Source: Favolaschia claudopus
Taxonomy: Eukaryota; Basidiomycota; Agaricomycetes; Agaricales; Mycenaceae
Reading direction: 5' to 3'
Length of the DNA: 64,000 bases
NCBI GenBank assembly: GCA_037176885.1
Contig: JAWWNJ010000189.1
Span: 310,001 to 374,000, forward strand
Part shown: positions 43,886-64,000 of the stretch, piece after piece
How the letters are laid out: each line of letters starts with the position of its first letter
Position numbering within the stretch: the first letter of the stretch is position 1
Notes under the pieces: generated by a model
The model's input: only the letters and a program-made list of their open reading frames with translations
The model's database searches: none
What the model was told of the DNA's origin: nothing
Made by a program: the position numbers and the translations under genes

Positions 43886-45579
43886 TGTCGGAAAAATGGC
43901 GGATTGCTTCGAAAGGCTTCCAACTGATTAGGACCTTCCTAAGCCTTAGGATGGCTTAGAACTGCTGGCGGGGTGGGTTATAATCCACCCTAAGCTGGTT
44001 CGAAGCCCTTATGAGCCAAGCAGTGTCTTAAGGGGATTAGAGGTGCCAGGGCAATTTTAAACGAGTCAATAACACTGTGAAAACATCAGTACATGCTCGC
44101 ATCCGTGTAAATTCATGGATTGTGACATAGCCCCGCCGTGCTGGGCAGAAAACCGTGAAAAACGTCTAAGTCAGGATGCCGAGATGCCGAGCAATGACGA
44201 CAGTGCTCCACATCCGCAGCACACACGACGCGGACGCCTCCCTCGTCTCTTGTCTCCTCCTCCCACCACCACCACCTCAACAATGCATTTTGTCATCGCC
44301 GTCGCCCTCACTGTTCCCGTCGCCGCCGTTGCCCCCCCTCCCCTCTCCTGCCAAACACCCCTACCGATTCTTGAATACTGCGATTGACGTTTCAGTGGTG
44401 ATGACAACGACAACAGCTGCATTGGCTAGGCACCGAGGAGGATTCCGGGCAAGCTGGATGCGCGGCCTGGGCTGGATTTAGGAACGGCGGTACGTCAACA
44501 GCATGGATCGAGTTCACACTGGCACTGACCACTGTCGTGAGCTAGGAGCAATTCGTATGGGAAAATGAGCGAGAATACGATGAAAGGTGCGTCGATTATG
44601 ACCACGCAGCCTCTTCCCGGTTGATCACAATTACGACGACGACGATCGGTATGTTTTTTCCTCTTCGCTTTCACTGCGCTCATCTTGACCATTCTCAGCG
44701 TCAACCGGCGCCGCAAGCGTAGTCATTTCAAGCGGGCCGTCCCAGACGAGCTCGTCTCGAGCCGGATTTTCTCCTTGACCACTTGCCGCATACTCTCGTA
44801 GTTCCCCTCCCCCGCCGTGGTCGTCAGCGGCTAGCGGGAAGTAGTATTGTGTGATTATTCTCCATTTTTGAAATAAAATTGTTTCGTCTATGTCTCCCTA
44901 CGTGTGATGTAGTACTGGTATAGATACAGGATGGCTATTGAGTATGCCGGGGGATTCTGGTCGATTTTGGCGGATTCTAAGGTGCTGGAAGGCTCCAATC
45001 GCGTAATGGATTAGAGTGGCTTAGAGGTCACCCGAGTGTCTTAGAGACCATCATGAGGTTTTAACTGTACATTATAAGAGACCCCGAGGCTTGGGGTCTT
45101 CGAACACCTTCTAACTACTTCCACGCCGCTATAAGCAATCCAGGATTTTTCCGACAAGCTGCACGCAAAACTGTCAAGAAGGTGGCGAAGAAAGCCTCGA
45201 AATCGATCCAAACGCCACAGTCTCGTTGCCCTCAGTGCAAGCGGCAACATACCTCAAAGGACAATGAAGCTCTCAATGCTGGCCATCCCGAGACGGGATT
45301 TCTTGCAGATAAAGCCGTTGCTAAAGGTGAAATTTAGCAGCAGATTTACGATTAAAGCTTGATGAGAATGGAATACTACAAGAAAACAATCTCATTTTTT
45401 TTTTGGCTATAACGACAATGACGGCCGCTCCATACATTGTATGATAGCGGACAGGAGTTCATGTCAAGCCGCATTTTTTAAAGAAAACCATTCAATCGGC
45501 GCGGAGTAAAATCCTCCGAGAGAAACATAAGTGGGGCGAAAACCATTTCAAAGACCCAGGTCTGCGACCCACAAACAAG
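43886..45579. other. Mostly unassigned; weak coding fragment near 45070-45340
   Basis: A plus-strand stretch at about 45100-45337 reads as basic, lysine-rich sequence followed by RCPQCKRQHTSKDN and ends in a stop. The CxxC suggests a gene remnant. Phrases such as GGCGGATT with GGAAGGCT recur near 43900 and 44970. Nothing else was recognised. Confidence 0.35.
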
Positions 45580-47631
45580 ATGCACGGTTTGCCGGAGAAT
45601 TATGGCCTGGGCCGGGACAGCCCCTTTCCATCCCCTCTGGGAACAAGCTGGACTGGATGCTACCCTACATCGCCAATGGATATTGATAGTCCCATATCCA
45701 ACTGCTTCAGTCCCATGGACGTCGACGAGCCGCGTGAGCTTCGATTTATTTTGGAACTTTGACGGCTTCTTTTTCTAACGCCACATAATCTGATGCAGCT
45801 GCAATGCCAATGGATCGGTGTACATGTCCCAATTTGTCCCCAGAGTCCTATCCACTGACAGGTTGGTGCCTAATACTCCGAAGAAGGCCCTAATACTTCT
45901 CTCACATACATTCAGATTGTGACGATCCAGTTCCACGCTCTCTATCGCTTCAAGCATGGGAGAACTGGGACTCTGACAACATCATCGAGAAGCGCGACAT
46001 ATATGAACAGAAATGGGGGCTGCTTCAAGCAACACCGTTACGGTTTCTGCTCGAAAAGCGTCATGTTCCCTGGCCAATCCTCAAGAATCGGATTGAAGCC
46101 TCCGTAGCATGGTTTCTGTTCGATGGAAATATGACAATTACGCAGAAGAAGCGGGCTATCCGTAGAAATCTTCTGATCTTTCACCCCGATAAAGTGACGC
46201 AATGGATTACAGCCGTTTTGGAAACAATATACGGGTTTCGATTGAGTGGTGCTCGTTCGTTTGTGCTTACGTTTGTTGACGATTCTGTCATCGGCAAAGC
46301 CGGGAGCACCACTTTGTGGGGCGTTGCCGTACCACATAGTCTGGGCAATTGACCCAGTGACATTTCACGTCCACGTGACTTCTCACGCCTCCTTCCGCCG
46401 CCAAGCTATATGTTACCACAAGCTTTAGCTCCCTGCCTCCGGCACGGCCGACTCGCTGCGCTCGCCGGCCTTCCTCCGTTCGGTCACACAGCTTGTTGGG
46501 GCTGGCCGCCCCAAGCCCCGCTGCGCTCGCTCCGCTCACGACGTCTCGTACGATCTCAACATCTCGACAAAGACCCCGTGATTTTCTGTCAAAAGTCACG
46601 CGACTGATGGCCTGGCCCTCTTTTCAAGTATAGGATGTCTGCAGTTGTTCGCCTATCTTCAATGGCTATGTTGGTGTAGTTGTAGTTTACTGTTTGTCGT
46701 ACATGCTGTCCTTAGTCGCTTTCGGGTTCGAACCTTGCTGCAGGGTCTTTTTATTTCCCTTTCTTTTTTTCGTTTCGATTTCCTTTTCCCATCCTCCTCT
46801 TCCGAGGCTTGATATCACTATTGTACACTTTTTCCTGTATGCACATTGCGCAGCGTGCAATTTTGTTAAGATAATGCTGAGAAACATACAACTGTTCAAT
46901 AGTTCAATTTGGAGTCTCTGCTCGGACAAATAATTAAAGTTGGTTTTTGAACGTACTGTGTTATAACACCTCTTCCGACGACATGGTACATTAAGTTGCT
47001 GAATATAAGCCCGGGTACAACATGAACCTTTGTCAACTCTACTTACAGAAAACTTCCTTTTTTGGAAAATCTTTTGATTCCCAATTTCCCTCACAATTTG
47101 AGAGTATGGGGCTTCTGATATGGTACCTGCACGATGGGTCGAACATTAGTATCAGCTCGCATGGCCATCGCCATCCGTGATACTCATACGCGCTGCTTTC
47201 TTAGATTCACCGCCGCCGCCCGCGGCCAGATCACGTGCACGTGAACTGTCACTGGGTCAATAGCGCCAAGTCGTACCACATCAAGTGCCGCTGGTCCCTT
47301 GTTTTGGGCCTTGCTCGCAAGTCATGGCCCTGTCGAGCTCTGGGCAAGTAGCAGCTGAGTCTTGATCCTCAGTTCTGTTAACCCCCTGTTTTTTTCTGGT
47401 GTTCTTTGGGTGGCGGAAGCGAAAATCAGATTCGGCTGAAGTGGAGCTGGTGACGGGAAGCAAAACAAAGGTAAGCACAAACGAATGAGCACCACTTGAT
47501 CAAAACCCGTATATTGTTTCCAAAACGGCTGTAGTAAATGCGTTTCCCAAGACTGGGAGGAGATTATGGAGTGTGCTCAGGATATTGGTAGGGAGTTGAT
47601 AGAACATCTTGCAAAGCTTTGTCCTACGTAG
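45580..47631 (+). pseudogene. Agaricomycete gene with HPDK motif, split by a TA-flanked element
   Basis: Exons 45580-45733, 45799-45861 and 45916 onward join in phase (introns of 65 and 54 bp). The protein has an acidic/Pro start, then WENWDSDNII, RHVPWPIL and RRNLLIFHPDK, matching a frequent uncharacterised Agaricomycete family ending in a J-domain-like (RW)HPDK helix. At 46208-46209 the exon is interrupted by a 1322-bp element. The same reading frame resumes exactly at 47534 after the duplicated TA (SKCVSQDWEEIM...) and stops at 47631, so the gene before insertion would be 202 aa. At present translation runs into the element and stops at 46352 (217 aa chimera). Coding may extend upstream of 45580, where the frame stays open to about 45450. 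Confidence 0.72.
46210..47531. mobile_element. 1322-bp TA-flanked element inside a coding exon
   Basis: Terminal inverted repeats begin CAGCCGTTTTGGAAACAATA and end in its inverse, with TA duplicated at 46208-46209 and 47532-47533. The outer ~60 bp pair well, and a further block (TTGACCCAGTGACA, about 46349 and 47254) extends the inverted structure inward. No transposase frame. Inside, about 46600-46760 carries a tRNA-like T-loop and a T-rich run that may be a nested SINE. Confidence 0.85.
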
Positions 47632-48129
47632 GTTGTGTATGCCGGTGCCCGGCCTACAGGAGGGGGAGCTTGCCTGGATTCCTTGTGGATTTACTGTAGG
47701 ACTTACAGAGTCACGATCAGAAGCTGCAAAGAAAATCCTTCGGTATTGAGCACGATGGTCTGGCTATAAGACTCCCAGACGTACTTCTTGGGACGCGCCA
47801 AAGTGGCGAGTCTCTCGAATCCATCCTTGTGGTCAACTATTGCAATATCATACCTTCCCTGCGATAAAGGTTGCTGTGGTCCATTACCCTCTTAATTTAT
47901 AGGACCTCTCTCCTTGAACCTGAGCATGCCACTCCATTTCTACGGATCTTTCTTCCCCTTCACAATGTCCCATACTTATGCTCAGTAAGGTAGACCGGGA
48001 CCCCATCCACCATCGACGAACATCACGTGTCACGTCCGGATTCGGACGAAACATTATTACTCTAATAACGAGGAAGAATGAGCCAAATTCCCTCGACCAA
48101 TTTGTTCAAATGCATGCAACCTCATCCTA
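47632..48129. other. Spacer without recognisable gene
   Basis: Sequence between the split gene and the next TA-flanked element. It presumably holds the 3' UTR and polyadenylation region of the split gene. No motif was identified with confidence. Confidence 0.4.
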
Positions 48130-49470
48130 CTCGGTGTCGCAAAAAGTAACCGATAATTTGCCATTTTAGGCCGAATCGTGCTGGATTTTCTCGGTCCAGA
48201 CACATCGCAATGTTGTTTGGAATGCTTTGTACCCGATTGCAATAGTGTTTGAGGGAAATGGACTCTTGAATCCATCGTACGAGCCGGTTCATTCTAGGAA
48301 TTTACAGATTGCCTTTTTCGGACGAAAGCTCTATGTTCCCAGTCTGTTGCCCATTGAAAGAGTGTTTTCAGGACCGTATGTTGTTGATTCAATACCTGGC
48401 TGTGCACTGAGAGAATTTGACCTTTGAAAATTATGTGATTTTGGTAATTTCCGGGCTTTAAATTCCGTTAAGCAGATCAAGGCTAGTTTCAAAACTGGAT
48501 ACCACCCTATACCACCTTTGGTACTTAAAAATCATACGGAAACAGCTATAACCGAGGCAATAGGGTCGTTCACGATAGCCTTTTTCCGCTCCTTTTTGCT
48601 TCCTTTTTGTTCTCCTTTTTCGTCCTTTTTGGGTTTCTCTTCGTTTTTCTTCGAGTTTTTTTCCCCTTTTTCATTTAGAATGTCAAAAAGGGTATATTGA
48701 CAAAAAGAACGGAGTCAAACGGTGAGTTTCAGCCAATATAGTAGAAAAAATGGCGCCAAAAATGGAGCTCAAAAAGGCTATCGTGAACGCTCCGTCCGGA
48801 GCTTCCTTTTTCAGCCATTTTGATCTCATTTTTGCCTCCCTTTTTCGCATTTCTTTCGTTCCTTGGTAGTAGTGCATAGTACATGTTGCCTGTGATACTG
48901 AGAAGTGCAAAAAGGTAAACTTGACAAAAAGAAAGAAGTTCTACGGAGGTTTTTTTGACTAAACTGTAAAATGGGCAAAAAGGAAGCAAAAAGGAAGAGA
49001 AAAGGAGAGCAAAAAGGAATGCAAAAAGGCTATCGTGAATAGCCCTAATTTGTATCCTGCGAGTGCTATAGGACGACTAAGGACTCATTCAGGGTCGCAA
49101 CTTATCATTCTCTGGACTTGCCATTCACGGGGATTGCCAACAAGACCAAATTGGGCGTAGGAACTGGGTTGATGATTATCGGACCGTTACCACGCTATCC
49201 TGATCAATCCTTTTGGGCTTCAGGTCCGAATATATCCCATCTACAAGAATCAGCCCAAAAAATGGCTCCCCTGACCAGGGGTTGTTCGCCTTTTGATAAC
49301 ATCCAGTTTTTGTGTTGAATACTGAAAGCTTCAGACAAGCAAATGCTACGACCTTTCTACATATGTTATAGAGGATATCCAGGGGTGCATGTGTGTCGCA
49401 AAATCTTGTGAAAATATCACGTGATCGTGAAGCAATGACCAAATTACCGGTTACTTTTTGCGACACCGAG
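48130..49470. mobile_element. 1341-bp TA-flanked element
   Basis: Ends CTCGGTGTCGCAAAAAGTAA and the inverse TTACTTTTTGCGACACCGAG, each bordered by TA. About 30 bp of the ends pair well. The interior has short open frames (for example 48227-48427 plus) but no DDE motif was recognised. It hosts a second nested element at 48563-49045. Tc1/mariner-type by its TA target and ends. Confidence 0.8.
48563..49045. mobile_element. 483-bp nested element with CCTTTTTGC arrays
   Basis: Ends GGGTCGTTCACGATAGCC and GGCTATCGTGAATAGCCC, bordered by TA. Subterminal regions are arrays of CCTTTTTGC/GCAAAAAGG words. A third copy of the end, GGCTATCGTGAAC, lies at 48777-48789, so this may be two overlapping or fused copies. 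Confidence 0.78.
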
Positions 49471-49734
49471 TAGAATTACAGCAATTCCTGAAAATAATGG
49501 CAAACACCAATTGAATAGGAAGGATATCCATTGCGACTCGGAACATCATGGGCTTGTCATTCTCATTTTTCTGTGTGTATCTTAGCCTGAATCGTAATAA
49601 AATCAAAGAAAAATGACGTACATCCCAGTAACGCAGCAAATTAAAGCCTTCTTCAGGCTCTAATCCCTCGCTCTTGTAGCGTCCAAACTCACGAACAGCT
49701 TGGCTAACAGAATCTAGCTACGGTAACGGGGAAT

Positions 49735-49939: not shown

Positions 49940-50886
49940 CTCCACAATCCTCTGTTTGGTTAAAAAAAATTATAACAACCTGTACACAATTATAAGTTGT
50001 CAGGAACAATTTTGAAGAACAAATCTAGAAAAATATAAGCACCCGAGGTTGCTTATTAGAAATTCAGCAATGAAAACTTATAAGAACCTGCGAGTGCCTA
50101 TAAGAAACACTTTCCCACAGTTGTCAAAAAAAAAAGTTGAGATACAAAAGCTTCTAAATAGCTCAGAAAACACTTCTGTCTCTTCAGAAATGCTCCAATT
50201 CCTCTTGTTCAAGAGCTATAAGGGACAGACTTGAAGGAATCAATGCACATCTAAATCAGGTAATTGATAGCTGTCAGAATCAATTCCCATGACTCCATGA
50301 CAGTAGGAATGGTGACATAATCCTCACAGGTATATAAAGCCCCCAACCACATAATATTGGATTTCTTTTAACACCCCACTATCCATATTGCGACTCAACC
50401 TGCTTATCTAAGCAGCCCACTTGCTTATCTAAGCTTCCCTCTGCCCTCCAACACTGCCTCAGCTCAATAATCAATACTTATAAAGGTCTGTCATGCCTTA
50501 TATTAAATTCTCCAGTCTTTTGCTCAACCACATCAGCAAACCAGGACCTTGATTCATTCTTTTAAGGGACTATCTCAGCTTATAAGAGACACTCAACCCT
50601 CTTTCTTGGTCAGTATAGTTGTTAATATAAGGACCCTTCCTAGCTTATAAGATTTCTGCAGTCCTCAAATTTGCTCTGCATCCACAATTCTTTGAGTAAA
50701 TCCTGCCAGACTCAACCATCTTTGCTGGTCAGTATAATTGTTAATATAAGGACCCTTCATGGCTTATAAGTTTTTTCTCTCACCAGATTGCGCTCCTTTG
50801 AAAAGTTGTTTATTTCCTTCCCCTCTAGAAATTTTCATTGAAACTGCTGCTAGAGTTTTATTATAAGTCAGAAACTACTCTAATAA
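49940..50886 (+). promoter_or_regulatory. Upstream region of the helicase gene with TTATAAG motifs
   Basis: AT-rich sequence with about ten (C/T)TATAAG sites. It includes a diverged ~62-bp direct repeat at 50590-50652 and 50709-50770 (GGTCAGTATA, TTAATATAAGGACCC, GCTTATAAG). Each copy starts at a GTCAGT-like donor and runs to a CTGCAG or CACCAG acceptor-like end, so the two may be introns in the 5' UTR. TATA-like words are too frequent to pick a promoter. Confidence 0.45.
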
Positions 50887-53800
50887 TTGATTCTACAACA
50901 CTGTGGGTTGCCTGATACTTATTACTGCTCTTTGCTCACTATAATGAATATAGATGTCTCAACCTGTGAGCTCAAACATTGTTGCTCAGACTATATTCTT
51001 ATCCATGCTCAGGTGATATCAAAGAAGATTCGACTCAATCATCGTGGGGATCTCATAACTACACCTCTTCTCCACGCAATTAATATTGCAATCAATACCG
51101 ACCTTCTTCTTTACATCTGTCTCCCCTGCGAGTCTGCACATACCTGCTCAACCGATTGGAGAGGTGGGATCCTCAATCATCTTTCCAAGAAACATAACGG
51201 AGTGTGCGACTCCAATACAAAGAGGGAAATTGTTGATCAAACACATGGATATGAAATCAAGTCCACACACATCGCCGACCCCTCACACGATCCACGTCCT
51301 GCATATAGTGGTATCAAGATTGTTGATAATCAAGAAGGATGCACCCACTGCCCGTATTCAGCTAGCCATAAGGTGGTCACCAAACATCAGCGGGACGAAC
51401 ACAAGGATTACACCGGCAAAACGATCCAAAATCTTCACACTCAAGTGCTGAATTCTGGTATACCAGCTTTGAAACCCTGCATCAGAGTCCTTCCTTTCCC
51501 CGTGGAAGCTGTTACATGCTCCCCCATCTCTACTCAAAAGTTGTTGAGCACAGCTCCAACTCCAACTCCATCCCATCCATTCAAGCTCAATCCGGACACT
51601 GAGCAGGCCATCTCTGTTGCGCAGCCTGGGACGAAAATCTATGCTGACTACCTCGCGTTCAAACGTTCGGACTTCCCGCCAGAAGCAGAGACAGACGACC
51701 GTCTCATCAGCCCTTGGCTCAAGCGCACACACTGGATGCGTTTGATTGAATCCCATCTGGATCATCTCGATGAGCTTTGCGATTTTGCGAAGTTTCCCGG
51801 GGAAGAGGAATTTCCGGCGCTGAAGGCGATTGTTGTGTCCTACTTCACTGCTGCAACTCAGTTGGTTGGCCTGACCCATGGGGCTGTACTCGAACGTCTC
51901 AACTCTGCAGATCCAGACAAGGAGTGAGTGATTTCTTATAGTCAGTCCTTTGGCCTTATATTAATTGTGCAGTGGAATCACCAACAAACCTTTACATGCA
52001 CACAAACCCGGTGATAAAACATTCAACGCCTATGTCTCGATCATTGTTCGACTCATCGGAACATTCATTCGCAAATCCAACTACTACTCCCTTCCGTTCA
52101 CTCCTTCCTGTGAAAGCGCTCGAACCACATTCATTGACACCCTCAACAATGGCTCGGAAAGTGACCAAGACGAATCACTTCACGCTTTTCTGCTCTCTGT
52201 GTGGGCTACGACCTGGCAAGCAACGCACGAGGAGCGGGATTGTGATCCCACGTTGTGCTTTCTCGGGTTGTATGCATTACAGTCTACTGGAGAGTTTCTG
52301 GGTCCAGAACAGATGACAGCTCCTATGGCGCGCTTGTCATGGGCCATTCGTTTGGTTGTCCTGCGCCAGATTCATCAGCTGTGTGCCAGCGGTGTCTGCA
52401 AGGATCAACTCGAGGCGTTCAACAAACTGGCAGAATATATCACGGAACATAACATCAACACCTTCAGTTCCATCCGCTCACTACAACACTATGCTACTGC
52501 CATTGCAATGAGCGCAATGCCGCTTCCAAGCATTGTGTTCCTCGATCGCGAGGGCTGGACCGATATGTACTTCAAAGGCCAACACTTCAGCCTGGAGAAG
52601 CTTCGAGAAATTCTGGCCGCTCTCGAGGCGGAGATCATGCGACTTTGGAACGAAGACGTGATGCTCGGGTTCAATCTTCGGGTGGATTATACAAATCTCG
52701 TTGACAATCTTCAAAACAAGAAGCCTGGATACTCTTTCATTCAGGAACCCACAAATCCCTTTCTGCAGCATCGAAACACGTTCCTGCAGACATTGCTGGC
52801 AGATCCTGTCAAGGCTAGAGAGTTTGTCTTCAAGGCTGCTGGCGTTGAGGACGAGCAGATCAACATGACTTGGTGCCGTAAACACTTGACAAGTGTGGGC
52901 AAGCTCGAGGGCCTCCTGATGCTCTATGTCGAGCTTACTCCTGGTGCCACAATCCGGGGCACGGAACTTACCTCTATGATGATGGAAAACACTCCCTGGC
53001 GCTTCCGAAATGCTCTGGCGTTCGCAAAGTTTCTCGCACTCTTTCGCCAATACGATAAAACCACCAATCTCACTGGGAAAGACCGCCTCATTCCTCATGC
53101 TGCAAGCACATTTGTCAGCGACATAATCATCCAGCTACATACCTTCATCCGGCCGTTTGCTCAGGTGAGAAATGGCATTCTTATAACACTATATTGCTCC
53201 TTATATTAACGCAACATCCTGTTTTTCAGGTACGAAATTATTGTTCTCTTATAAGCTCCTTCAACTCACTATATTAAACACACACCATCCCATTTCTCAG
53301 GTGCGAATTTATTCCTCTCTTATAAGCTCATTCAACTCACTATATTAAACACACACCATCTTATTTCTCAGGTGCGAATTCATTCTTCTCTTATAAGCCC
53401 ACACCACTCACTATATTAAAAACAGTTCCTTGCCAGTCTTGTCTTCCCTGACAATGCGTCTGTTGTGGCCCAGTATGGCAGCATGCTCTTCATGGACTTT
53501 GGCCGATACTTCGACTCCCCAAAGCTCAGCTTGCTCATGAGTGAGTGGGCATCTCCAGTCCTTGGATGGAGCATGACTATCTCGTGTTATCGACAAATCA
53601 ACACGGCTTTGCGGAGAAAACTGTGTGGTGATCTGGATGACGATTATGAAGTGGAGACAGATGTGAAGCAGGTTGTGGGTGCGCTACAAGCTGGACACAG
53701 CTGGCGAACTGATCACCGGCATTATGGCTTGTCTCATCACGCAATGCTGGGGGTGAGCGAGGAAATCATACAACAATTTCTGGATGCCAGTGTTCGTTTC

Positions 53801-56397
53801 CAAAAAGCGATTGGTGTTGTTCCCGGCGGCCTCTCTCTCCCATATTCCAGTGCTACCATGGATCACTTTGCTGGCTTGAACCTTGTGTCAAAGGTAGAGA
53901 AGGTGGCGATTACACAGAACATTGATCCTCGGATGGAATCCCTCATTTCGAAACTGATCGAAACGAACCAGGCCCTGCTCAAAGGACAGCAATTGATGAC
54001 GGAAAAAATCGCTGCCTTGGAGCAGAAACTCGAGTCTAGGGAGCCAGTCATCGTACCCCCTCCACCCGCCGTGCTCCAACTCACACATCTGATCAATCCA
54101 TCTTCACCCTTGCGTTCTGAGCCTCTCGATCTTCCAGTCCCCCCTCCTTCCCATCCACCAGCAGCACAACGTCCTTCAGAACTACCCCAGCACAATGTCA
54201 TCGATGTTGATGTCGACCAAGATGGCGATCTAACCATGGTCAATGCAGACGATGACTCGGACATCGAAATCCTTCCCAGCCCTCCTTCCAAACCTGCTCC
54301 GCAACCACTCCCCTCACACAATGTCGATGTCCTCACTCACCTTCAAAACATGTATGGCGATAAAGCTGTATGGAAGGATGAGCTGCAATACATTGCAGTC
54401 CAAGAATTGCTTGCGTTGAAGGGAGATGTCTTCATCACACTCAAAACTGGTGCGGGGAAATCAGCAGTTATTGTATTGCCAACTCTTGTGGAGAACGGGT
54501 ACACCGTGCTACATCTTCCTCTCATTTCCCTCATGATGGACTGGGAACGACGTCTCAAGGAACTTGATGTTTCATACGAGAAATGGAGTGGGGGATCTCA
54601 GCAGTCTCTCACGGGTGGCGATAACCTCATCCTCGTTTCCTGTGACATGGCTCGAACCCCGAAATTCAAACGGGCTATAGCAGAGCTGGGGGTCACCAAG
54701 CCAGTTATCCGCTATGCATACGATGAATGTCATCTCTTTGTCACTGATGCAGACTTCAGAGCAGAAGCATTTGGGAACCCATACGAGATGCGGGAACGCC
54801 CCCTTCAAATCGCTTTGGTTTCGGCGACTATATCTGCTGGTGCTGAAACTATGTTGACAAAGGCATTCAAGCTCAAGGTGAGTTATTTCATTCTTATAAC
54901 ACTGGATTGCTCCTTATATTAACGCAACATCCTATTTCTCAGGTGCGAATTCATTCTTCTCTTATAAGCTCATTCAACTCACTATATTAAACACGCACCA
55001 TCCTATTTCTCAGGTGCGAATTCATTCTTCTCTTACAAGCCCACACCACTCACTATATTAAACACTCAAGAACCCCACCAGAATTGCTGGTCTCAGTGAT
55101 CGACCCGAACTCCATTTTCGCATCGAAGACATGTCGTGTGGCTTTGATGATCAGCTCTCCAAACTCCGAAAGCTACTGCAGTACTACAAGAATGTGACTA
55201 CATCCAGCGGCAACCACTACTGGCAGCCAAACAGCCGCTATGTTGTCTATGTTGGTTCAATGGCAGAGGGCACCCGACTGGCGGATGAGCTTGGGTTGGA
55301 GTTTTATCACGGGCACTCCACAGCCCATCCCATCAGCGAAGAGGAGCGTGCAGCTATCTACCAAAGATGGAAGGATGGTGAGCACGACGGACTAATTGCT
55401 ACCACAGCATTTGGACCAGGGATTGACTACCCTTCGATCCGGCTCACTTTTCACTTTGGAAAACCATTCCATCTCATCGGATTTGTACAAGAGGCCGGCC
55501 GCGCAGGTCGAGACGAACATTCGGCATACAACTACATTCTTCCCCTTCAAGGAATTTGCCGTCCGAAGGAAGAAGAATCTGATCCTTGTGGCAAACTAGC
55601 CATGTGGGATTTAATCTACAGTGCAGAACGAACTTGTCATACCCTGCAGATAACAAGATTCCTTGACAAGGTGGGACGAGATTGTAAAAGCATTGGACGT
55701 TTACCATGCAGTCCTTGCAAACACGGTAAGAATATTCAATTTATTATAACACTATATCACTCACTATAAGAAATCTGTAGCTGATGTCAAGCGGGGCAAA
55801 CTAGCACCAACTCCAATGCCTTCAAATCCCTCCCTCCCATATACACCACTTTCTTTCGCTGGCGTGAAGCGCAAACTTGATGATGCATTTGGCGATGCTG
55901 CAAATGCTGCAGTACTCGAGACTGGCAAACGAATCGCCGCTCATCCACGGGCAGTTGAAATGTTCCGCGCCTTCTTTGCTCGGGTTGGGACAGCATGCGG
56001 ATATTGCTGGGCCATTGGGATTAAGAACCCAACCTCACATTTTTACAGCGAGTGCAAACAGATGGGGCCGACAACAGAATTTTACAAGTTCAAACGTGCT
56101 GTTCGTTACCCGGACAGCGGTGGTATTTGCTTTCGATGCCACATTGCGTCCTATGGCCAAGACGCATTACATCCACCTATGGGCAAAGACAAACACTGCC
56201 CATATCCCAATCTCGCATTGCAGCTTGGCTATGCTATTTTCAACAATCCAACAATTCGAAAAAAGGCTCTAGCACACTTTGGTCCCAGCCCCGCTGAGTG
56301 GTCTACCCCCACAGATTTTGCAGCATGGTTTCAGGGGAAACATCCTATGTACAAGTTCAGATCCATGGCTGTGATTGAATTTTTTGCTAATATGTAG
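50887..56397 (+). CDS. Zinc-finger / tyrosine-recombinase-like / RecQ helicase fusion protein
   Basis: Five exons (50887-51923, 51973-53164, 53426-54877, 55071-55725, 55781-56397) join in phase into 1650 aa. Residues ~77-104 and ~151-172 form two C2H2-like fingers (ICLPCES...HLSKKH; CTHCPYS...HQRDEH). Residues ~660-860 match the tyrosine-recombinase active site: R674 and E677 in IRGTEL, K715 in TGKDRLIP, R799 in SCYRQI, H834 and Y843 in AGHSWRTDHRHYG, although the usual first H of HxxR is absent. A coiled coil follows at ~915-946. The SF2 helicase core has Walker A TGAGKSAV (~1083), DECH (~1175), SAT (~1209) and motif VI QEAGRAGRDE (~1367), RecQ-like. The C-terminus is Cys/His-rich (CGYCW, CFRCH). 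Fungal telomere-linked helicases are RecQ-like, and this resembles them by domain and by the adjacent tandem repeat. All motifs appear intact. Confidence 0.82.
51924..51972 (+). other. Intron 1 of the helicase gene
   Basis: 49 bp, GTGAGT...TGCAG. Contains CTTATAG and CTTATATTAA, words shared with all other introns of this gene. The TATTAA word about 13 bases before the acceptor is a likely branch site. Confidence 0.75.
53165..53425 (+). repeat. Intron 2: tandem array of four intron-like units
   Basis: 261 bp made of units 53165-53229 (65 bp), 53230-53300 (71), 53301-53371 (71) and 53372-53425 (54). Each unit starts with a donor-like GTGAGA, GTACGA or GTGCGA, has CTTATAAG (CTTATAAC in the first) then TATATTAA about 20-25 bases before its end, and all but the last end in TTTCTCAG or TTTTTCAG that abuts the next GT. 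Each unit could splice alone. The 261-bp intron is needed as a whole to keep the frame. Confidence 0.88.
54878..55070 (+). repeat. Intron 3: tandem array of three intron-like units
   Basis: 193 bp made of units 54878-54942 (65 bp), 54943-55013 (71) and 55014-55070 (57). The units are homologous to those of intron 2, in the same order (a 65-bp leader type, a 71-bp type and a shorter terminal type with CCCACACCACTCACTATATT), though the two introns lie 1452 coding bases apart. The acceptor that keeps the frame is CTCAAG at 55070. Confidence 0.88.
55726..55780 (+). other. Intron 4 of the helicase gene
   Basis: 55 bp, GTAAGA...TGTAG. Contains TTATTATAACACTATAT and CACTCACTATAAG, similar to the leader-type and terminal-type units of introns 2 and 3, as if only one shortened unit were present. 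Confidence 0.75.
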
Positions 56398-57049
56398 ATA
56401 AATTGATGTAATATTGCCTCACCTCCAGAGTAATTAACCAAATACACTCACTTCCTTTGCCCTTCAACTTATATCCTATGAAGGGAATCAAATAAGAGCC
56501 CACTAATCATAAAACTATAATGCTGAACCACTAGATTCCTTTTTGGGACAGTAGAAGTTGCATCAACTTCCTATTATGGGTTCATACTCTGTCATTGATT
56601 TTGCCAAATATGTTGCCCTTCCCCCTTGCAAGATACCATCAATAGTGACTCATATAGTGTATATTCACGTCTCAATGCATTATCCAAGTCCTATACCTGG
56701 TAAATTTCCATTGACTTGAATTCAACCTCAATCCAATCAAATCAAAATGAAGCATTCACATATCCCTCTGCCCCCCATGGTTCTTGCTAAATGAGCTCAG
56801 ATACATTGGCTAGGGCTGTACCTAGCTTCCTGAAACGTTTATACTACTCCCTACCTGGTGGTTATGCTTCCCAGGCCCTTGAACTACAGCTTTGACCAGG
56901 TCAAAGCATATTAATCCAAATCTCCATTTCCCTGCCTTGAATATAGCTCACAGGTGTTGATTTGGGTAGTAGATACTATACTAAAATGTTTCTGATTGTT
57001 CTAAGCACTAAATGCTGTGTATGGATGGGTGAGAAAACACAGTAGGTGT
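56398..57049. other. Spacer downstream of the helicase gene
   Basis: AT-rich, non-coding. The helicase gene 3' UTR must lie at its start. No terminator-like or repeat structure was assigned. Confidence 0.5.
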
Positions 57050-57420
57050 GCTTGGACCAGGCAAACAAAATGAACAAAATCATGATCTGTTGCTGTTGAA
57101 ACTGTTAGATATGGAGCATATATGTTTATTGGGTATCTAGGTAAGTCCTCATCTGCTGTCTAAGCGCTACAACTGGTAGCTTTTATTCAGTTTGAATGTG
57201 GATCACTAGCTTGGACCAACCAAAGAAATTTATCAAATTCAGAATCAATGGGGATTTCATGTACTCAGATGCAGGTGACCTGTAGTCATGTCAATGTCTA
57301 GGTACTTCTCTGTATGATATTCAAAGCTCTGAGTGTGAATTTGATGCAATCGGATACTAAATCCATAGCTTGGACCGGCTGAAGCAAGGGAAGGCTCATA
57401 GTTAGTGTAATGAACGGTGT
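57050..57420. repeat. Diverged 159-bp tandem repeat
   Basis: The word GCTTGGACC occurs at 57050, 57209 and 57368, spaced exactly 159 bp apart. Accompanying similarity (ATCTAGGTAAGTCC versus GTCTAGGTACTTCT; CTAAGCGCT versus CAAAGCTCT) supports an old tandem repeat of two to three units. It directly precedes the 2372-bp repeat. Confidence 0.6.
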
Positions 57421-60400
57421 GAACAAAACCATTTCTTATAGTCGACGGCAAAGCCTTATAATAATGAATGCCACTAAAAGCCAACCATATAAGAATTGCG
57501 ACTCACTGCCAAAAAAAATTATAAGCCAGAGCCAAGGCTTATAAGAAATGCAATTAAAATAGCTGACTCTGAGGTCTTGTAAGAAATCGGTAAAAATGGT
57601 CAAGACCAAAAGGGTGCCAAATAGCCTGGGAATCAGCCTAGTGTCACCGCAAACACCCGAACAGGTGTCGTTGACGTGCTATATTGACTTGGATGGAAAC
57701 CGTACGGCTGGGACCGAAACCTGACTACGACAATCAATTGACCACCGATTGCCTTGGGTATAGGCCCGAATGGAAGCGTTTGACGAGGACTATAAGATTA
57801 TGTCATCAGTGATTGAGTCTCAGCTCACCTGACATTTACGACTGGGTCAAACACTGCGTTCGAAGCCATACGGAATGCACAAGGCAATACCAAAGCACGG
57901 CTGTTAAGGTTTGGGACAACTCCCCAGCACAGACGTTAAGGTTAGTGGTCCCACTCCCCCGATGGAATTCACTAGAATATAAAATTTTTTCGGCAGCTTC
58001 GGAAAGGAAACCGCGGACCAAGCAATCCAGCAAGGCAATGCACGGGTTAACAACGGAATCCAGCAAGACATTGGCGAACTAGCCGCTCACAGCTGCCCGC
58101 TAGAACGTAAAGGAAGTTGCGGGTGACCAAGTCAATGGAAGCACGTACTTGAGTGTACAAGCCAATGGTCAACAATACATCACCAAGTACGATGGCAGGC
58201 AATCAATCAACCCAGTCTGCCTAGTGAGTATCATCCCTTGCAACAACAGCAACTGTCCCCGCTGTTTCTATCTACTTCTCCCGGAGGCGTGTCAAATGGA
58301 CCCACGACATCAAGAAGTAAAATAGCAGGCAATCAACCCAGTCTGACCCTGTCGAACACATTCGGAGTGCTCTACCCACCAGGCCAGCCTGAGTCAGAGC
58401 AGCAACTGCTTGCCTTGCAGTTTTGATTTCTACAAAACGACCCCGCACCAAGCCAACTTGGACCGCCGCAACTACATCCGTCTGAGCAGCTATAAGGACC
58501 AGAGATGTCTCAGAGCGGGCACAACCACTTGCCTTCAAAGGCTGCGTTTGAGTCTCCAATAGCGAACAGACTCTGCTGACCGCAAATCGTAGCCAAGTCA
58601 AACCCAACGTACCGGACTCAATTAGCCACTCATTGCCTTGGGTATAGGCTCGAAACGAAGCATTTGCCCAGCATTATAAGGCTATATGCGTGGCGGGAAA
58701 ATCCGAGGGCAATGAGGCACTCAAGTAGGGTACGGACTTGAATATTGCCTTTGAACGCAAGCCAGTCGTCTTGAGTGAATGCATCTGGGTATTCTCAATG
58801 ACTTGCCCTCAAAGCTAAGGATTACAAGGCCTCCATATCCTGGCAAGGGTTAGGGACATTGGCTTCAGACCGCAGAGACACCGCGTGAAGGAAACAAGCA
58901 CCGAACACCCCAATTGAAGCTATACGGAATACAGCAAAGCAACCCCGCATCAGAGACGTTAAGGTTGGCGACAACCCAGGAGCACAGACGTTAAGGTTAG
59001 CGACCCAACTCCCCCGACGGAACCCACCAGAATATAAAATTTTTTCGGCAGCTTCGGAAAGGAAACCGCGGACCAAGCAATCCAGCAAGGCAATGCACGG
59101 GTTAGATGACGCAATCCAGCAAGACATTGGCGAACTAGCCACTCTTATCCCTCCGCTACTTCGTAAAGGAAACCCAGGTCACCGGAGTCGGTGGAAGCAC
59201 GTATTCAAGTCTGCGGGCTGTCATATAAGGCAACAGCTGCCAACAGAGAGTGAAACTGGCCAGGCAGAGTTACGACCACGTTATCACAACCATTCCCACG
59301 GTCACTGTGGCCAAACATGCTCCTGATATGCTGGCATGGGCTCAAGCAGTGATTTCAACTACAAACGAATGCCCGCGGAAGGCAGGTACTCACACCGTAC
59401 CAGCTGGATACTAGTGTGGAGGTGAAACTTGCCTAAAAGGGCAACATGGAGGTCACGGGTGGCGCTATGGACTTGATTTCTATCAGGATATGACTGGAGG
59501 GACCTATTCCATGACCTGAGATGGGTGGCGGGAAAATTGTCAATGCCGCGGGCTTGGCGCGGAGCAATATACCAACTTGGCTATTTTCTTGATTGTAGTG
59601 CAAGACGTGGTGTGATTGCTTATCTGGACCAAGGGAATGTTCCCACAGACACACAAGCACGTTGGCTTTCTTATAGTCAAAGGCCACGTGTTATAAGGAG
59701 ACACTGTATTGGGCATATGAGTGTGCGAAAATATTCAACTCACTGACACGCGCAACGCAACACCGTTCAAGGAACCGCCATTGAATCACAAAGAACAAAA
59801 CCATTTCTTATAGTCGACGGCAAAGCCTTATAATAATGAATGCCACTCAAAGCCAACCATATAAGAATTGCGACTCACTGCCAAAAAAAATTATAAGCCA
59901 GAGCCAAGGCTTATAAGAAATGCAATTAAAATAGCTGACTCTGAGGTCTTGTAAGAAATCGGTAAAAATGGTCAAGACCAAAAGGGTGCCAAATAGCCTG
60001 GGAATCAGCCTAGTGTCACCGCAAACACCCGAACAGGTGTCGTTGACGTGCTATATTGACTTGGATGGAAACCGTACGGCTGGGACCGAAACCTGACTAC
60101 GACAATCAATTGACCACCGATTGCCTTGGGTATAGGCCCGAATGGAAGCGTTTGACGAGGACTATAAGATTATGTCATCAGTGATTGAGTCTCAGCTCAC
60201 CTGACATTTACGACTGGGTCAAACACTGCGTTCGAAGCCATACGGAATGCACAAGGCAATACCAAAGCACGGCTGTTAAGGTTTGGGACAACTCCCCAGC
60301 ACAGACGTTAAGGTTAGTGGTCCCACTCCCCCGATGGAATTCACTAGAATATAAAATTTTTTCGGCAGCTTCGGAAAGGAAACCGCGGACCAAGCAATCC

Positions 60401-63400
60401 AGCAAGGCAATGCACGGGTTAACAACGGAATCCAGCAAGACATTGGCGAACTAGCCGCTCACAGCTGCCCGCTAGAACGTAAAGGAAGTTGCGGGTGACC
60501 AAGTCAATGGAAGCACGTACTTGAGTGTACAAGCCAATGGTCAACAATACATCACCAAGTACGATGGCAGGCAATCAATCAACCCAGTCTGCCTAGTGAG
60601 TATCATCCCTTGCAACAACAGCAACTGTCCCCGCTGTTTCTATCTACTTCTCCCGGAGGCGTGTCAAATGGACCCACGACATCAAGAAGTAAAATAGCAG
60701 GCAATCAACCCAGTCTGACCCTGTCGAACACATTCGGAGTGCTCTACCCACCAGGCCAGCCTGAGTCAGAGCAGCAACTGCTTGCCTTGCAGTTTTGATT
60801 TCTACAAAACGACCCCGCACCAAGCCAACTTGGACCGCCGCAACTACATCCGTCTGAGCAGCTATAAGGACCAGAGATGTCTCAGAGCGGGCACAACCAC
60901 TTGCCTTCAAAGGCTGCGTTTGAGTCTCCAATAGCGAACAGACTCTGCTGACCGCAAATCGTAGCCAAGTCAAACCCAACGTACCGGACTCAATTAGCCA
61001 CTCATTGCCTTGGGTATAGGCTCGAAACGAAGCATTTGCCTAGCATTATAAGGCTATATGCGTGGCGGGAAAATCCGAGGGCAATGAGGCACTCAAGTAG
61101 GGTACGGACTTGAATATTGCCTTTGAACGCAAGCCAGTCGTCTTGAGTGAATGCATCTGGGTATTCTCAATGACTTGCCCTCAAAGCTAAGGATTACAAG
61201 GCCTCCATATCCTGGCAAGGGTTAGGGACATTGGCTTCAGACCGCAGAGACACCGCGTGAAGGAAACAAGCACCGAACACCCCAATTGAAGCTATACGGA
61301 ATACAGCAAAGCAACCCCGCATCAGAGACGTTAAGGTTGGCGACAACCAAGGAGCACAGACGTTAAGGTTAGCGACCCAACTCCCCCGACGGAACCCACC
61401 AGAATATAAAATTTTTTCGGCAGCTTCGGAAAGGAAACCGCGGACCAAGCAATCCAGCAAGGCAATGCACGGGTTAGATGACGCAATCCAGCAAGACATT
61501 GGCGAACTAGCCACTCTTATCCCTCCGCTACTTCGTAAAGGAAACCCAGGTCACCGGAGTCGGTGGAAGCACGTATTCAAGTCTGCGGGCTGTCATATAA
61601 GGCAACAGCTGCCAACAGAGAGTGAAACTGGCCAGGCAGAGTTACGACCACGTTATCACAACCATTCCCACGGTCACTGTGGCCAAACATGCTCCTGATA
61701 TGCTGGCATGGGCTCAAGCAGTGATTTCAACTACAAACGAATGCCCGCGGAAGGCAGGTACTCACACCGTACCAGCTGGATACTAGTGTGGAGGTGAAAC
61801 TTGCCTAAAAGGGCAACATGGAGGTCACGGGTGGCGCTATGGACTTGATTTCTATCAGGATATGACTGGAGGGACCTATTCCATGACCTGAGATGGGTGG
61901 CGGGAAAATTGTCAATGCCGCGGGCTTGGCGCGGAGCAATATACCAACTTGGCTATTTTCTTGATTGTAGTGCAAGACGTGGTGTGATTGCTTATCTGGA
62001 CCAAGGGAATGTTCCCACAGACACACAAGCACGTTGGCTTTCTTATAGTCAAAGGCGACGTGTTATAAGGAGACACTGTATTGGGCATATGAGTGTGCGA
62101 AAATATTCAACTCACTGACACGCGCAACGCAACACCGTTCAAGGAACCGCCATTGAATCACAAAGAACAAAACCATTTCTTATAGTCGACGGCAAAGCCT
62201 TATAATAATGAATGCCACTCAAAGCCAACCATATAAGAATTGCGACTCACTGCCAAAAAAAATTATAAGCCAGAGCCAAGGCTTATAAGAAATGCAATTA
62301 AAATAGCTGACTCTGAGGTCTTGTAAGAAATCGGTAAAAATGGTCAAGACCAAAAGGGTGCCAAATAGCCTGGGAATCAGCCTAGTGTCACCGCAAACAC
62401 CCGAACAGGTGTCGTTGACGTGCTATATTGACTTGGATGGAAACCGTACGGCTGGGACCGAAACCTGACTACGACAATCAATTGACCACCGATTGCCTTG
62501 GGTATAGGCCCGAATGGAAGCGTTTGACGAGGACTATAAGATTATGTCATCAGTGATTGAGTCTCAGCTCACCTGACATTTACGACTGGGTCAAACACTG
62601 CGTTCGAAGCCATACGGAATGCACAAGGCAATACCAAAGCACGGCTGTTAAGGTTTGGGACAACTCCCCAGCACAGACGTTAAGGTTAGTGGTCCCACTC
62701 CCCCGATGGAATTCACTAGAATATAAAATTTTTTCGGCAGCTTCGGAAAGGAAACCGCGGACCAAGCAATCCAGCAAGGCAATGCACGGGTTAACAACGG
62801 AATCCAGCAAGACATTGGCGAACTAGCCGCTCACAGCTGCCCGCTAGAACGTAAAGGAAGTTGCGGGTGACCAAGTCAATGGAAGCACGTACTTGAGTGT
62901 ACAAGCCAATGGTCAACAATACATCACCAAGTACGATGGCAGGCAATCAATCAACCCAGTCTGCCTAGTGAGTATCATCCCTTGCAACAACAGCAACTGT
63001 CCCCGCTGTTTCTATCTACTTCTCCCGGAGGCGTGTCAAATGGACCCACGACATCAAGAAGTAAAATAGCAGGCAATCAACCCAGTCTGACCCTGTCGAA
63101 CACATTCGGAGTGCTCTACCCACCAGGCCAGCCTGAGTCAGAGCAGCAACTGCTTGCCTTGCAGTTTTGATTTCTACAAAACGACCCCGCACCAAGCCAA
63201 CTTGGACCGCCGCAACTACATCCGTCTGAGCAGCTATAAGGACCAGAGATGTCTCAGAGCGGGCACAACCACTTGCCTTCAAAGGCTGCGTTTGAGTCTC
63301 CAATAGCGAACAGACTCTGCTGACCGCAAATCGTAGCCAAGTCAAACCCAACGTACCGGACTCAATTAGCCACTCATTGCCTTGGGTATAGGCTCGAAAC

Positions 63401-64000
63401 GAAGCATTTGCCCAGCATTATAAGGCTATATGCGTGGCGGGAAAATCCGAGGGCAATGAGGCACTCAAGTAGGGTACGGACTTGAATATTGCCTTTGAAC
63501 GCAAGCCAGTCGTCTTGAGTGAATGCATCTGGGTATTCTCAATGACTTGCCCTCAAAGCTAAGGATTACAAGGCCTCCATATCCTGGCAAGGGTTAGGGA
63601 CATTGGCTTCAGACCGCAGAGACACCGCGTGAAGGAAACAAGCACCGAACACCCCAATTGAAGCTATACGGAATACAGCAAAGCAACCCCGCATCAGAGA
63701 CGTTAAGGTTGGCGACAACCCAGGAGCACAGACGTTAAGGTTAGCGACCCAACTCCCCCGACGGAACCCACCAGAATATAAAATTTTTTCGGCAGCTTCG
63801 GAAAGGAAACCGCGGACCAAGCAATCCAGCAAGGCAATGCACGGGTTAGATGACGCAATCCAGCAAGACATTGGCGAACTAGCCACTCTTATCCCTCCGC
63901 TACTTCGTAAAGGAAACCCAGGTCACCGGAGTCGGTGGAAGCACGTATTCAAGTCTGCGGGCTGTCATATAAGGCAACAGCTGCCAACAGAGAGTGAAAC
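57421..64000. repeat. 2372-bp tandem repeat (satellite), at least 2.77 copies
   Basis: Units are 57421-59792, 59793-62164 and 62165-64000 (cut by the window edge). By eye only about three to four bases differ between copies (for example A/C at 57476 versus 59848; C/G in AAAGGCCACG versus AAAGGCGACG), so identity is about 99.8%. Each unit has an old internal duplication: 57742-57800 resembles 58626-58690 and 57866-58170 resembles 58918-59222. Open frames of up to 111 codons recur in each copy but overlap on both strands, lack domains and are best seen as chance. TATAAG-type words recur about ten times per unit. Confidence 0.95.

Follow-up and report, generated by a model that had tools for sequence, protein, structure and literature searches.

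Does the helicase gene near the end of contig JAWWNJ010000189.1 of the mushroom Favolaschia claudopus (assembly GCA_037176885.1) also encode an active site for cutting and rejoining DNA, and what would such an activity do at a chromosome end? The window analyzed comprises 64,000 nucleotides of this contig (C189:310001-374000), and the gene occupies window positions 50944-56397 on the + strand. We classify it as a telomere-linked helicase (TLH) with a previously unrecognized domain of the tyrosine recombinase/type IB topoisomerase (TopIB) superfamily. It is probable that the N-terminal half of the protein holds a strand-transferase domain of this fold with a complete R-K-R-H-Y set, for which we propose a role in the upkeep of chromosome ends.

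In-silico splicing, with splice sites assigned from sequence alone, joined five exons across four introns into one open frame of 1,631 residues, running from the first ATG at 50944 to a stop at 56397. An earlier sequence-only reading had begun at a TTG at 50887 (1,650 residues), so its residue numbers equal ours plus 19. The fusion it described, of C2H2 fingers, a motif-bearing middle segment and a RecQ helicase in one intact protein, was borne out. The middle segment and its candidate catalytic residues, with their occurrence in an alignment of 40 proteins (the window protein and P0002-P0040; P0041-P0049 were left out), are as follows.

52670..53833, + strand: tyrosine-recombinase/TopIB-fold domain, residues 560-860, split by the intron 53165-53425; based on predicted homologue structures and VIA-align; dN/dS of 0.022-0.108 in 11 paralogous loci
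52955..52966, + strand: R655 and E658 (RGTEL, box I), 40/40 and 40/40
53057..53059, + strand: K689 (YDKTT), likely catalytic lysine, 38/40
53591..53593, + strand: R780, box II arginine, 39/40
53696..53725, + strand: H815 and Y824 (GHSWRTDHRHY), 39/40 each; Y824 is the presumed nucleophile

Evidence for the fold comes from VIA-align 2 second looks at predicted structures of two homologues, rather than from Foldseek. The homologues share 57% and 21% identity with the window domain, the latter being the metagenomic protein P0040, and the recombinase/TopIB superfamily was the top match for both. The fold suspected in the sequence-only reading therefore stood when checked on predicted homologue structures, and a TopIB/tyrosine-recombinase-type catalytic fold fused to RecQ is supported at the level of these models. 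The loops carrying the lysine and the tyrosine have a low predicted local distance difference test score (pLDDT) in both models, which makes the active-site geometry tentative and slightly lowers our confidence in the strand-transferase interpretation, leaving it on the probable side.

Foldseek returned nothing at E <= 0.001 for either model. Sequence-based searches did not detect the domain either: a PDB profile search left the recombinase domain undetected, as did Pfam on 33 homologues among the matches listed (25 of 64 families). Searches of 11 domain pieces against Pfam, NCBIfam and PHROGs gave no integrase or recombinase match at E <= 10, and none to DUF3435. With hhalign, the 40-row domain alignment scored 19.0 against 11 phage integrases, whereas the best of 40 column-shuffled alignments reached 21.2; other segments of the protein scored 21.0 (N-terminal bundle) and 17.9 (helicase). 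A weak local alignment in this comparison, not significant, set GHS..Y onto GHK..Y. The profile comparison proposed earlier, with integrase and Crypton-type (DUF3435) families, thus yielded no significant match.

Could the motifs have arisen by coincidence in a helical domain unrelated to recombinases? The lack of any significant sequence or Foldseek match and the low pLDDT of the lysine and tyrosine loops would suit this explanation, but models at 57% and 21% identity share the same top superfamily, and the five catalytic candidates fall within the 18 best conserved of the 301 columns spanning residues 560-860, where mean column conservation is 0.41. We regard it as very improbable; conservation of R655, E658, R780, H815 and Y824 is more than chance would give. 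The only protein lacking H815 and Y824 is a truncated model. Two further protein searches for distant relatives, for example in ascomycetes, returned proteins from Schizophyllum and Suillus and the single metagenomic P0040, along with RecQ-type and other proteins; of the 12 rows of one of these searches, nine (P0041-P0049) lie outside the conservation count.

The residues named in the sequence-only reading, R674/E677, R799 and H834/Y843 (our R655/E658, R780 and H815/Y824), are present at 52955-53725, and the nine-residue spacing from H to Y is that of tyrosine recombinases. Its expectation that these residues would be conserved held for both arginines, the histidine and the tyrosine and failed for the lysine, where the neighboring K689 stands in. 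That lysine, K715 in a TGKDR turn (our K696), was rejected as the catalytic candidate: it is a lysine in only 10 of the 40 proteins, and K689 (708 in the earlier count) was kept instead. The absence of the box II HxxR histidine, also noted earlier, extends to the whole alignment: residue 777 is never H in the 40 proteins, being S in 11, A in 11, N in 10, Q in 3, W in 3 and R in 2.

An R-K-R-H-Y set without the HxxR histidine is known from TopIB enzymes and suggests a topoisomerase. RecQ helicases, moreover, partner topoisomerase III. The domain might serve as a TopIB-like partner of the RecQ motor, relaxing the supercoils or joined molecules that this motor generates at repetitive ends. Against this, the best fold matches were Xer recombinases, slightly ahead in both models, although differences within 1 Z count as ties. 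We consider TopIB-like action a serious possibility, falling somewhat short of even chances.

Selection on the domain was assessed by the ratio of nonsynonymous to synonymous substitution rates (dN/dS) against the window copy in 11 paralogous loci (L003-L006 and L008-L014). Several of these are near-identical, namely the trio on C17 and the pair L013 and L014, and the set does not amount to 11 independent tests. Domain dN/dS ranged from 0.022 to 0.108, and none of the 11 loci had a stop in the domain; on these ratios, the recombinase-like domain is under purifying selection. It was lower than that of the linker in all eight loci with a value, and lower than that of the first helicase domain in seven of nine, the exceptions being L013 and L014 (0.048). 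Values were saturated or missing for the linker of L010, L013 and L014 and for the helicase of L010 and L011, and the L010 linker alignment contained one stop. Outside this set lie the window copy (L007), the truncated or disrupted copies L015, L016, L022 and L023, and a distant group (L017-L021) in which synonymous sites were saturated where computed. Within the distant group, L017, L018, L020 and L021 retain the motifs and are free of stops. L022 is without the GHS..Y part.

These data also bear on whether a recombinase fold was kept for DNA binding only, its cutting activity lost. The HxxR histidine is absent in 40/40 proteins, the lysine is missing in two homologues and R780 in one, and the domain is invisible to sequence profiles, all of which is compatible with such a loss. 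Retention of R, K, R, H and Y in 38-40 of 40 proteins, together with dN/dS of 0.02-0.11, argues the other way, as residues would not be expected to be retained so exactly for mere binding. A binding-only role therefore seems unlikely.

We then located the copies of the gene in the genome (264.57 Mb, 460 contigs), querying with a 135-residue piece of exon 3; all counts from this search are lower bounds. At least 21 matched stretches were found on 17 contigs, each 1.3-69 kb from a contig end; two neighboring stretches on C153 possibly derive from a single broken gene, and on C125 and C275 the match is limited to residues 1-74 of the 135. No interior copy was found among the 21 stretches of this lower-bound search. 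In each of the 15 contigs exceeding 100 kb, the gene is directed toward the nearby contig end; on the short contigs C452 and C457 it is directed toward the end with the telomere array, which in C457 is not the nearest end. At the end toward which the gene points, 13 of the 17 contigs have a TTAGGG array; none was seen on C256, C79 and C275 (first 10 kb) or C125 (last 500 bp). The window gene itself ends 13 kb before (TTAGGG)n at the contig end, and homology to the other copies starts at 49.7-50.1 kb of the window. Between gene and telomere lies one further feature.

57421..64000, + strand: 2,372-bp tandem satellite running on into the telomere array

This layout agrees with a family of telomere-linked helicase genes whose copies spread when chromosome ends exchange sequence, and the order gene, satellite, telomere is that described for fungal TLH genes. 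The sequence-only reading had offered a satellite-maintenance or mobile-element enzyme: the first fits a gene bordering the 2,372-bp satellite, the second does not fit a search without interior copies. In favor of mobilization of the gene by a Crypton- or Starship-like recombinase of a transposable element, one could cite the identical copies on C17, C69 and C189 and the tyrosine-recombinase fold itself. Opposed to it are the uniform orientation on 17/17 contigs, the 11 domain pieces unmatched by integrase or DUF3435 profiles, and the failure to identify element ends or target-site duplications; because none of the 21 stretches found is an interior copy and orientation is uniform, we judge a mobile-element transposase improbable.

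Several observations concern the repeats around the gene. The satellite unit contains two diverged internal copies of ~289 bp that are 82% identical. Directly before the subtelomeric repeat, 44001-49600 is pieced together from dispersed repeats, copies of which lie on many contigs at up to 100% identity. In 50077-62289 there are 11 occurrences of the palindrome CTTATAAG, and in 1-49700 there are none, against 0.61 expected in the whole window. Its sites are found in the leader and in introns, and each satellite unit has one; among the 20 subtelomeric loci L024-L043, 15 have at least three copies. The palindrome may be a binding site, or it may simply accompany the repeats that these loci share. 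At C17:2425176-2441338 (L026, L027, L025), a 5,386-bp unit in tandem carries three gene copies, the first two of which end within the helicase exon and retain a complete recombinase-like domain. Inspected for a possible recombination site, the junction between the repeated units showed no homology.

The protein is ordered as two C2H2 fingers, a helical region, the putative catalytic domain (~560-860), a linker, the RecQ helicase, a four-cysteine site and C-terminal Cys/His pairs. The remaining features of the gene are listed below.

50944-51923, 51973-53164, 53426-54877, 55071-55725 and 55781-56397, + strand: exons, from in-silico splicing; 39 homologues align
51924-51972, 53165-53425, 54878-55070 and 55726-55780, + strand: introns
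51118..51402, + strand: two N-terminal C2H2 fingers, OrsD-like (residues 59-84 and 133-153), with C/H conserved in the alignment
54383..55511, + strand: RecQ helicase core, DEAD (1044-1196) and Helicase_C (1287-1355), split by the intron 54878-55070
55635..55718, + strand: four-cysteine zinc site C1397, C1413, C1421 and C1424, conserved in 20-23 of 21-23 aligned residues, which we take to be RecQ-type
55996..56172, + strand: C-terminal Cys/His pairs (residues 1499-1557), from the alignment

The helicase motifs are intact (TGAGKS, DECH, SAT, QEAGRAGR), and the core matched Helicase_C (3.9e-10), DEAD (1.3e-8), RECQ1 (8.2e-20) and BLM (4.5e-16). The OrsD match is weak in the window copy (E 0.3, under the Pfam cut-off) and lies above the cut-off in all eight matches of a genome search, seven of which are paralogous loci. 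Introns 2 and 3 (53165-53425 and 54878-55070) consist mostly of ~71-bp tandem units, each with GTGCG or GTACG, resembling a 5' splice site, at its start and CAG at its end, as if introns had been multiplied head to tail.

How might the parts of a TLH with a strand-transferase domain work together? We infer both catalysis and a chromosome-end function, as follows. The zinc fingers and helical domain would bind chromosome-end DNA, which the RecQ helicase would unwind. Y824 would attack a DNA phosphate, forming a covalent 3'-phosphotyrosine, and resealing could be to the same partner, as in a topoisomerase, or to another, as in a recombinase. Subtelomeric repeats would be the likely substrate, to be cut, disentangled and rejoined, so that TLH and satellite copies are retained at chromosome ends; telomerase-independent end maintenance may be supported in this way. 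More tentatively, mushrooms, and perhaps fungi more broadly, could encode in their subtelomeric RecQ genes single-chain machines of a tyrosine transesterase and RecQ for telomerase-independent subtelomere upkeep and spreading via strand cutting, passage or exchange.

Subtelomeric RecQ-like genes have reportedly been known at least since 1998, from Sanchez-Alonso and Guzman. Like Ustilago maydis UTASa, the subtelomeric RecQ of Agaricus bisporus var. burnettii, Schizosaccharomyces pombe tlh1-4 and the Fusarium oxysporum TLH, the F. claudopus gene has an intact RecQ core, is multi-copy and lies next to telomeres; to these features the present analysis adds a predicted recombinase/TopIB-fold domain. 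With tyrosine recombinases (XerA/XerH, Cre, lambda Int) it shares the predicted catalytic fold, R...K...R...H...Y and the H-to-Y spacing, whereas it is fused to RecQ and lacks the HxxR histidine and a known site, as well as the match to a curated integrase or recombinase profile that would mark a site-specific tyrosine recombinase. Of the marks of Crypton elements or Starship captains, neither a DUF3435/integrase profile match (11 domain pieces, E <= 10) nor dispersed insertions with defined ends (21 stretches, a lower bound) was found. Unlike the type IB topoisomerases (pox, bacterial), the protein has a helicase and zinc fingers fused to the putative catalytic domain. RecQ-TopoIII complexes and reverse gyrase, similar in concept, also pair a helicase with a DNA transesterase, using type IA topoisomerase folds unlike the domain here.

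Published accounts of subtelomeric RecQ genes cover U. maydis, with an OrsD domain reported for UTASb (PMC10532341), S. pombe (PMC7840980), F. oxysporum (PMC12857005) and Mycosphaerella graminicola (PMC4522978). A. bisporus var. burnettii has 19 such gene models, including one group of 10 identical proteins, and that 2020 paper reported no domain beyond the helicase core (PMC7473861). A fungal telomere review names TLH once (PMC8381367), one article names RecQ only in Academ elements (PMC3627910), and in another, tyrosine recombinase/Crypton and RecQ-side terms co-occur solely in the reference list (PMC10799480). No paper describing a RecQ-tyrosine transesterase fusion was found in the open-licence PubMed Central literature.

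The role of TLHs is unsettled, and a conserved active site of strand-transferase type in the same chain would make the question addressable residue by residue. The domain offers a testable clue to the function of these long-puzzling chromosome-end helicase genes.
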